The position numbers were made by a program, and so were the translations under genes. A stretch of 47,671 bases of DNA from Spirochaetota bacterium (lineage in GTDB: Bacteria; Spirochaetota; UBA4802; UBA5550). The notes below the pieces were generated by a model. That model was not told the DNA's origin. It did no database searches and saw only the letters and a program-made list of their open reading frames with translations. The stretch lies in contig QKCL01000060.1 in assembly GCA_003246895.1 (NCBI GenBank), positions 1 through 47,671 on the forward strand, given 5' to 3'. This document shows positions 2,272-3,683 of the stretch, piece after piece (within the stretch, counting starts at the first letter, position 1; the number at the start of each line of letters is the position of its first letter).

Positions 2272-2310
2272 ATTGACACAATGGTATAGTAGCTATACCA
2301 TTGTGTCAAT
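2272..2310. promoter_or_regulatory. 39-base near-perfect palindrome at the MarR start codon (likely autoregulatory operator)
   Basis: Two 18-base arms (2272-2289 and 2293-2310) are perfect inverted complements around a 3-base centre TAG. The left arm begins ATTGACACAATGGTATA. The left arm contains TTGACA (2273-2278) and the right arm contains TATACC (2294-2299) 15 bases later, so a promoter may be embedded in it. The right arm ends on the first two bases of the ATG of the MarR gene. MarR dimers bind palindromes of about 16-20 bases near their own promoters, so this is a natural autoregulatory operator. It could also fold as an RNA hairpin over the start codon. Confidence 0.75.
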
Positions 2311-2746
2311 GAAAACAGATGAACAATTGATCCTGGCTTTTAAAAGGCTTATCCATGTGCTTACAGCAGGGAAAAAGAAACCTTTTGTGTATGGCAACAC
2401 GACTCTTTTTCGGGCTGAAGTACATATACTAGATTTAATCGGGAAGAGATCAGGATGTACGGCCACCGATATTGTTAATGATATGGAAATTACAAAGGGA
2501 GCGATTTCACAAATTATATCGAAACTTCTAATAAAAGGGTTGGTAGAAAGATTTTTTCAGGAAGATAATATGAAAAATCAGGAACTATATCTTACAGAGA
2601 AAGGGAGACAGGTTTTATCTTATCATGCTGCACATGAGCAGGAACTTAGAAAAAAGATCATGACTGAATTAAAAAAATGCAGTATGGAGGACGTAGATAG
2701 ATTTACGTTAATAGTTAATTTAATTGCCGATTTCAGCAAAAGGTAA
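2309..2746 (+). CDS. MarR-family transcriptional regulator
   Basis: A 145-residue winged-helix repressor of the MarR family, counted from the ATG at 2309. An in-frame TTG at 2228 would add 27 residues, but that extension merely translates the palindrome and has no family similarity, so I reject it. The DNA-binding part is the segment TATDIVNDMEITKGAISQII, followed by a wing (about residues 70-90) and a dimerisation helix at the end. There is no Shine-Dalgarno sequence before 2309; the transcript may be leaderless or the start may be set differently. The membrane protein gene starts 51 bases downstream on the same strand and is probably co-transcribed and regulated by it. The inducer is unknown. 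Confidence 0.85.
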   Translation: MKTDEQLILAFKRLIHVLTAGKKKPFVYGNTTLFRAEVHILDLIGKRSGCTATDIVNDMEITKGAISQIISKLLIKGLVERFFQEDNMKNQELYLTEKGRQVLSYHAAHEQELRKKIMTELKKCSMEDVDRFTLIVNLIADFSKR

Positions 2747-2797
2747 ATTTTTTACACAATAGTTAAGCAGCTAAACAATATTGAAAAGGAGTATATT

Positions 2798-3508
2798 ATG
2801 TTATCGAAAAAACCGCTATTTAAAGTAGCAGGTGTTATTGCAGTATCAGGAGGAGTTGTAATAATAGCAGGTGTAACAGCTTTAAAGGTTATATTTGGGT
2901 ATCCGGATATAATCAGGGCAGAATCAGGTCTCATTCTTGAAAGACTTTTTGAAAATATAAAAATTGTGCCTTATCTTTATTATATCGGTGTCGGAGGGGC
3001 AGGAATATGTATCCTTATGTTCTCAATACTTTTTGAGAAACTCCTGAATAGTTCAGGTGAAGAAGTCTGGTCTTCTCTTGGAAAGGTCTGCGGTATAATA
3101 ACAGGGGTTCTGCTTTATGCCGGAATTATCCGTTATAGTATTCTCTTTCCAAGACTTGCCGTAATGCGTCATTCCGGGATGTATAATACAGAAACTATCG
3201 ATCTGATATTTAAATCAATGAATAGTTATATTGGTGATTCTCTGGCAGAACATGTGCAGTTCACATTTACTTCGTTTATGATGTTCTTTTTTGGCATGTC
3301 AATTATTCGAACAAAAATTATATCAAGCTGGATTGCTGTATTTTCATTTATCACAATGATCGTAATGATAATCGGCAATCTTGAACAGTTTGGTGTAAAA
3401 TTTGCTTTCATCTTTAACAGGACCGGTGCTAAAATGCTTGCGGTTTGGCTTATTATTACTGGAGTTGCTCTTTTGTTTAAGAAAGAACCTTATAAAATAT
3501 ATATTTAA
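2798..3508 (+). CDS. Polytopic membrane protein, possibly DUF4386-like
   Basis: A 236-residue integral membrane protein with about six hydrophobic helices (for example residues 10-30, 55-78, 95-115, 150-170, 178-195 and 213-228). The general pattern, with an IRY segment in the third to fourth helix region, resembles the DUF4386 family, but I cannot confirm this by eye. The ribosome binding site AAAGGAG sits 8 bases before the ATG. It follows the MarR gene closely, and an ACACAAT heptamer shared with the palindrome lies at 2754-2760. Co-regulation by MarR is therefore likely. No transport motif is recognisable, and the function is unknown. Confidence 0.7.
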   Translation: MLSKKPLFKVAGVIAVSGGVVIIAGVTALKVIFGYPDIIRAESGLILERLFENIKIVPYLYYIGVGGAGICILMFSILFEKLLNSSGEEVWSSLGKVCGIITGVLLYAGIIRYSILFPRLAVMRHSGMYNTETIDLIFKSMNSYIGDSLAEHVQFTFTSFMMFFFGMSIIRTKIISSWIAVFSFITMIVMIIGNLEQFGVKFAFIFNRTGAKMLAVWLIITGVALLFKKEPYKIYI

Positions 3509-3650: not shown

Positions 3651-3683
3651 AAGAAAGGAAGCGCAGAGGGCGCTTCCTTTCTT
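3651..3683. terminator. Bidirectional hairpin terminator between convergent genes
   Basis: A 14-base perfect stem (3651-3664 with 3670-3683; AAGAAAGGAAGCGC) closes a 5-base loop. It lies 11 bases beyond the stop codon of the minus-strand lipoprotein gene and about 140 bases after the plus-strand membrane protein gene. The arms end in T/C-rich sequence, so it could stop transcription from both sides. Confidence 0.75.

Follow-up and report, generated by a model that had tools for sequence, protein, structure and literature searches.

Among the closest described systems, the acuR-acuI-dddL operon of Rhodobacter sphaeroides yields a transcript that begins exactly at the AUG of the repressor AcuR and has no Shine-Dalgarno (SD) sequence (PMC3017554), and a leaderless mRNA was shown by 5'-RACE for NreA, encoded by nreAXY in Mesorhizobium (PMC12724321). 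In the former, an inverted-repeat operator overlaps the promoter; in the latter, a dyad operator takes up the -35/-10 spacer, and the first gene encodes the autorepressor. The locus described here, a MarR-family gene (marR) whose start codon is entered by a 39-base palindrome (O1), would resemble both in these respects. AcuR differs in belonging to the TetR family, with an acrylate-related inducer and a single operon promoter, and NreA in being a nickel sensor of the CsoR/RcnR family whose single operon is read from one promoter; in our locus, by contrast, the next gene has a second operator in front of it. The MarR-type regulator CrtR of Corynebacterium glutamicum has also been reported with a leaderless transcript (PMC5401885), but its target operon is divergent, its own promoter is poorly defined, and its host is an actinobacterium with many leaderless genes. 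Leptospira interrogans, with about 440 mRNAs whose UTR is under 10 nt (PMC5243855), shares the phylum of our source organism, but its data are a genome survey and do not concern this operator. Since AcuR and NreA are published precedents, the design is of a known kind; the MarR lineage and the T-tract regularity described below appear to be new within the open-licence literature searched.

The window, i.e., the whole stretch of DNA analyzed (47,671 nt of contig QKCL01000060.1 from an uncultured Spirochaetota bacterium), holds the following elements around the start of marR:

2272-2310, no strand assigned: perfect 39-base palindrome O1, with arms 2272-2289 and 2293-2310 and center TAG
2273-2278, + strand: -35 box of promoter P1, TTGACA, inside O1 (TTGACT in the ortholog)
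2280-2302, no strand assigned: O1 core, AATGGTATAGTAGCTATACCATT, kept in the UBA5763 ortholog
2296-2301, + strand: -10 box of P1, TACCAT, after a 17-nt spacer and 7 nt before the ATG (TACTAT, 6 nt, in the ortholog)
2309-2746, + strand: MarR-family repressor gene, 145 aa, without an SD and predicted to be leaderless

The 18-nt arms of O1 (ATTGACACAATGGTATAG-TAG-CTATACCATTGTGTCAAT) are 100% complementary, without a mismatch, around the 3-nt center. A sequence-only reading had described a near-perfect 39-base palindrome at 2272-2311; the length and the perfect 18-base arms were borne out, but the end lies at 2310, on the T of the start codon (2309-2311), which agrees with its remark that the right arm finishes on the AT, and 2311 is a G outside the palindrome. 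It had also judged the palindrome to be far beyond chance, and among 40 copies of the window generated by a first-order Markov model, the longest perfect arm (gap up to 8) was indeed only 8-12 nt. The 18-nt arm is nevertheless not unique in the genome, where further long palindromes are terminators and, in one case, a CIRCE element. O1 itself occurs once in the 3.57-Mb genome, and a half-site search (up to 3 mismatches) returned only its two arms as exact matches.

The promoter boxes that the same reading had placed inside the palindrome were found there, TTGACA and TACCAT together matching the consensus at 10 of 12 positions, although TACCAT is mediocre. The repressor's own promoter thus holds a dyad operator between its -35 and -10 boxes, as in the AcuR/NreA design. 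Likewise, the reported lack of an SD was confirmed, no SD-like tetramer (AGGA, GGAG, GAGG or AAGG) being found just before the marR ATG, and this lack, with a -10 box about 6-7 nt before the AUG, is conserved, again as in that design. The marR mRNA is therefore predicted to be leaderless, its start probably at the AUG itself.

We compared the locus with an ortholog encoding a 77%-identical protein in Spirochaetia bacterium UBA5763 (DIEX01000033.1, a contig of genome G015), where the same DUF4386-like gene comes after marR. Its upstream DNA reads ATTGACTAAATAGTATAGTAGCTATACTATTGAATA-ATG, with the promoter TTGAC-17-TACTAT-6-ATG. Both boxes, still 17 nt apart and with the -10 near the ATG, are kept, as is the inner operator of 23 bp (arms of 10), whereas the outer sequence does not pair; the same palindrome, which was to be looked for before orthologs, is thus found as its inner core and not in its outer arms. 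On this comparison, the conserved core spans about 23 bp, and the outer arms are private to our genome. The ortholog also shares the N-terminus and carries an in-frame TGA two codons upstream of its ATG; a longer conserved N-terminus, which had been named as evidence against a leaderless start, was therefore checked and ruled out (from TTG at 2228), and the marR start codon is fixed. A single bound dimer does not explain the perfection of the outer arms, for which it is plausible, by inference only, that one arm was copied onto the other (quasi-palindrome correction). Elsewhere in the same genome (G000), an HSP20 gene is preceded by a CIRCE-like element, TTAGCACTC-N9-GAGTGCTAA, that lies within a 57-base palindrome with 26-nt perfect arms (L083, 7230-7286, contig C1) and is another operator extended into a longer palindrome.

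Relatives were detected, with a profile built from eleven members, in 33 of the 393 genomes of Spirochaetota. Among 35 homolog upstream regions, 11 carry a strict promoter at 5-7 nt from the ATG, compared to 14 of 652 background genes, for which several start codons per gene and a distance of 3-11 nt were allowed (Fisher p about 3e-9, with the homologs related to one another and some of their starts hand-chosen); the background DNA comprised about 400 kb each from our genome and from the relatives' stretches. The remaining 24 homologs lacked a promoter of this strict form, and the leaderless trait is not universal, an SD-like tetramer taking its place in nine of the 35, most of these from family f24. 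In most members with a recognizable operator, the dyad center stands 14-18 nt before the ATG. The dyads of most homologs are short or imperfect, some homologs combine an SD with a more distant upstream operator, and one gene of genome G002 has an independent 33-bp perfect palindrome finishing on the G of the ATG. Kept in the ortholog and recurring in distant homologs, the promoter geometry supports the earlier leaderless reading as far as sequence comparison goes.

The MarR protein scored above the Pfam curated cut-offs for PF12802 and PF01047, as expected of a winged-helix MarR domain, and its AlphaFold model (pLDDT 88) shows MarR topology with good confidence, with Foldseek matches to DNA-bound structures of ZitR, AdcR and FabT. 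None of the named NCBIfam MarR equivalogs (FabT, AdcR, TcaR, MarR) exceeded its cut-off, the best being FabT, with 49 bits where 200 are required.

Downstream of marR, the following elements lead into the next gene:

2748-2753, + strand: T-tract following the marR stop codon; its end is 16 nt upstream of the O2 center
2751-2756 and 2774-2779: putative promoter P2 (TTTACA and AACAAT), with O2 in its spacer
2758-2780, no strand assigned: second, weaker operator O2, AATAGTTAAGCAGCTAAACAATA, in the spacer of P2
2786-2791, + strand: SD sequence AAGGAG of the DUF4386-like gene, conserved in the ortholog
2798-3508, + strand: DUF4386-like membrane protein gene, the probable target (Pfam score below the curated cut-off)

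When the core pattern was searched with up to 3 mismatches, only O1 and the site at 2758-2780 were returned from our genome, besides reverse-strand readings of O1, and G015 likewise gave only O1 and O2; the regulator therefore looks local. The window, G015 and G026 all have an O2 site separating the MarR gene from the DUF4386-like one, and AAGGAG precedes the latter gene in both the window and G015. Promoter matches for P2 were weaker than those for P1 in 10 of the 12 cassettes compared. Beyond the DUF4386-like gene, a 33-base palindrome with 14-nt arms (3651-3683), between it and a convergent zinc-ribbon gene, is perhaps a two-way terminator.

The best reading of the locus, to which we give a probability of roughly three in four, is that MarR represses its own leaderless promoter and also represses its neighbor. 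Binding, repression, the position of the 5' end and ligand control are what we infer here. O1 would be the protein's own operator, filling the spacer of P1, and since the P1 start point would coincide with the A of the start codon or directly adjoin it, the repressor mRNA would be leaderless. A MarR dimer on the inner ~23 bp would exclude RNA polymerase and so limit MarR synthesis; MarR would also bind the weaker O2 and repress the DUF4386-like gene, which has a normal SD, and a ligand would release it from both operators.

Alternatively, the palindrome could act in RNA, with transcripts from further upstream forming a strong hairpin over the start codon, as the sequence-only reading had suggested for such transcripts; this 18-bp hairpin would block translation. 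The stem is strong on prediction (at -25.3 kcal/mol, much lower than its shuffles), the fold is the same in a long transcript from upstream, and no + strand terminator was found from the MCP gene upstream to O1. However, the stem would be absent from any P1 transcript, and comparison gives the hairpin no support: in the ortholog the arms measure just 10 bp (-8.6 kcal/mol), with the outer sequence unpaired, and dyads are short or imperfect in most homologs, which rules out an RNA hairpin as the conserved element. Since the outer arms are private to our genome, the operator and leaderless promoter are conserved and the hairpin is not; the kept core, together with the lost outer arms and weaker stem, favors a DNA operator, and we regard an RNA switch as very unlikely.

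It is also unlikely that marR is an ordinary leadered gene, with its main promoter further upstream and the palindrome serving merely as an operator or roadblock in the leader. Further promoter-like matches do occur upstream (e.g., 2123-2151), and the homologs with both an SD and a more distant operator show such an arrangement, but here there is no SD, and the TTGACA-17-(-10)-6/7-ATG geometry is shared with the ortholog. A terminator scan listed the palindrome as terminator-like on the - strand, where the stem is followed by TTCTTTTTTAC; no - strand gene ends there, however, and the left flank in the ortholog has a short stem only and lacks such a T run. As the single copy in the genome rules out a dispersed repeat or mobile element, a leftward terminator or a mobile or repeat element is scarcely credible as an explanation.

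We then turn to the T-tract. Six or more Ts within 4 nt of the stop codon were found in 12 of 35 cassettes, compared to 15 of 667 genes in the background, a count that itself includes at least two repressor genes, the MarR one and a TetR one. The tracts, of T6 to T9 (window 2748-2753, L035-L038, L055-L058, L046, L072 and L073), end 16 nt before the O2 center in nine of the 12 cassettes and 17 nt before it in three. The 16-nt spacing was also found by hand in L010 and L043, the latter a G030 cassette whose tract ends at this distance even though it begins 14 nt past the stop, and it is kept in G015 with five Ts. A hairpin before the tract was absent in seven of 14 cases, and most of the remaining hairpins were weak or did not exceed their shuffles, which rules out an ordinary intrinsic terminator in this set; the best exception, L038, reached -10.0 kcal/mol, compared to -3.7 (sd 3.3) for its shuffles. 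We tentatively raise, as a doubtful possibility, that the tract in each cassette might be a hairpin-free, repressor-gated terminator, freeing RNA polymerase stalled against the repressor at O2. If true, bacteria would have an equivalent of the T-rich element and roadblock protein found at RNA polymerase I terminators. In the Pol I system, which also needs an RNA hairpin (PMC12366685), the polymerase halts 15 bp ahead of the roadblock site, but a 15-bp register would fall near the start of the T-tract here, so that the fit is not ideal. A simpler rival is that the tract serves as the -35 region of P2. A T-tract at fixed spacing from O2 is a testable regularity, of which no description was found in the open-licence papers searched.

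Similar arrangements were seen at other genes. In our genome, a 31-bp palindrome before a TetR gene ends exactly on the ATG, with TTGACA just upstream (L081, 13259-13289, contig C1), and an ArsR gene (L136, contig C62, 37200) has a dyad between TTGACA and the -10, with the ATG 6 nt later; a near-copy of this dyad follows its stop codon and a T7 tract, before an SD-bearing gene. Similar proteins, resembling tRNA-guanine transglycosylase by eye, stand behind leaderless-type promoters in L130 (contig C36 of our genome, 9137) and L150 (contig C1 of G015, 617487). The pattern TTGACA-16/18-TANNNT-5/7-ATG was counted against a reversed control at 20 vs. 12 in our genome, 26 vs. 1 in G002, 36 vs. 2 in G012, 26 vs. 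2 in G013, 27 vs. 6 in G015 and 15 vs. 6 in G026, counts that represent an excess, which codon usage may inflate, and not a gene list, more than half of the inspected matches opening no gene of at least 100 aa.

Together, these comparisons suggest that the compact design, with an operator in the promoter spacer and a transcript starting at the AUG, is conserved for this MarR lineage across several Spirochaetota families, and a similar layout is seen at ArsR and TetR genes of our genome. Gene callers that expect an SD may misplace such starts.
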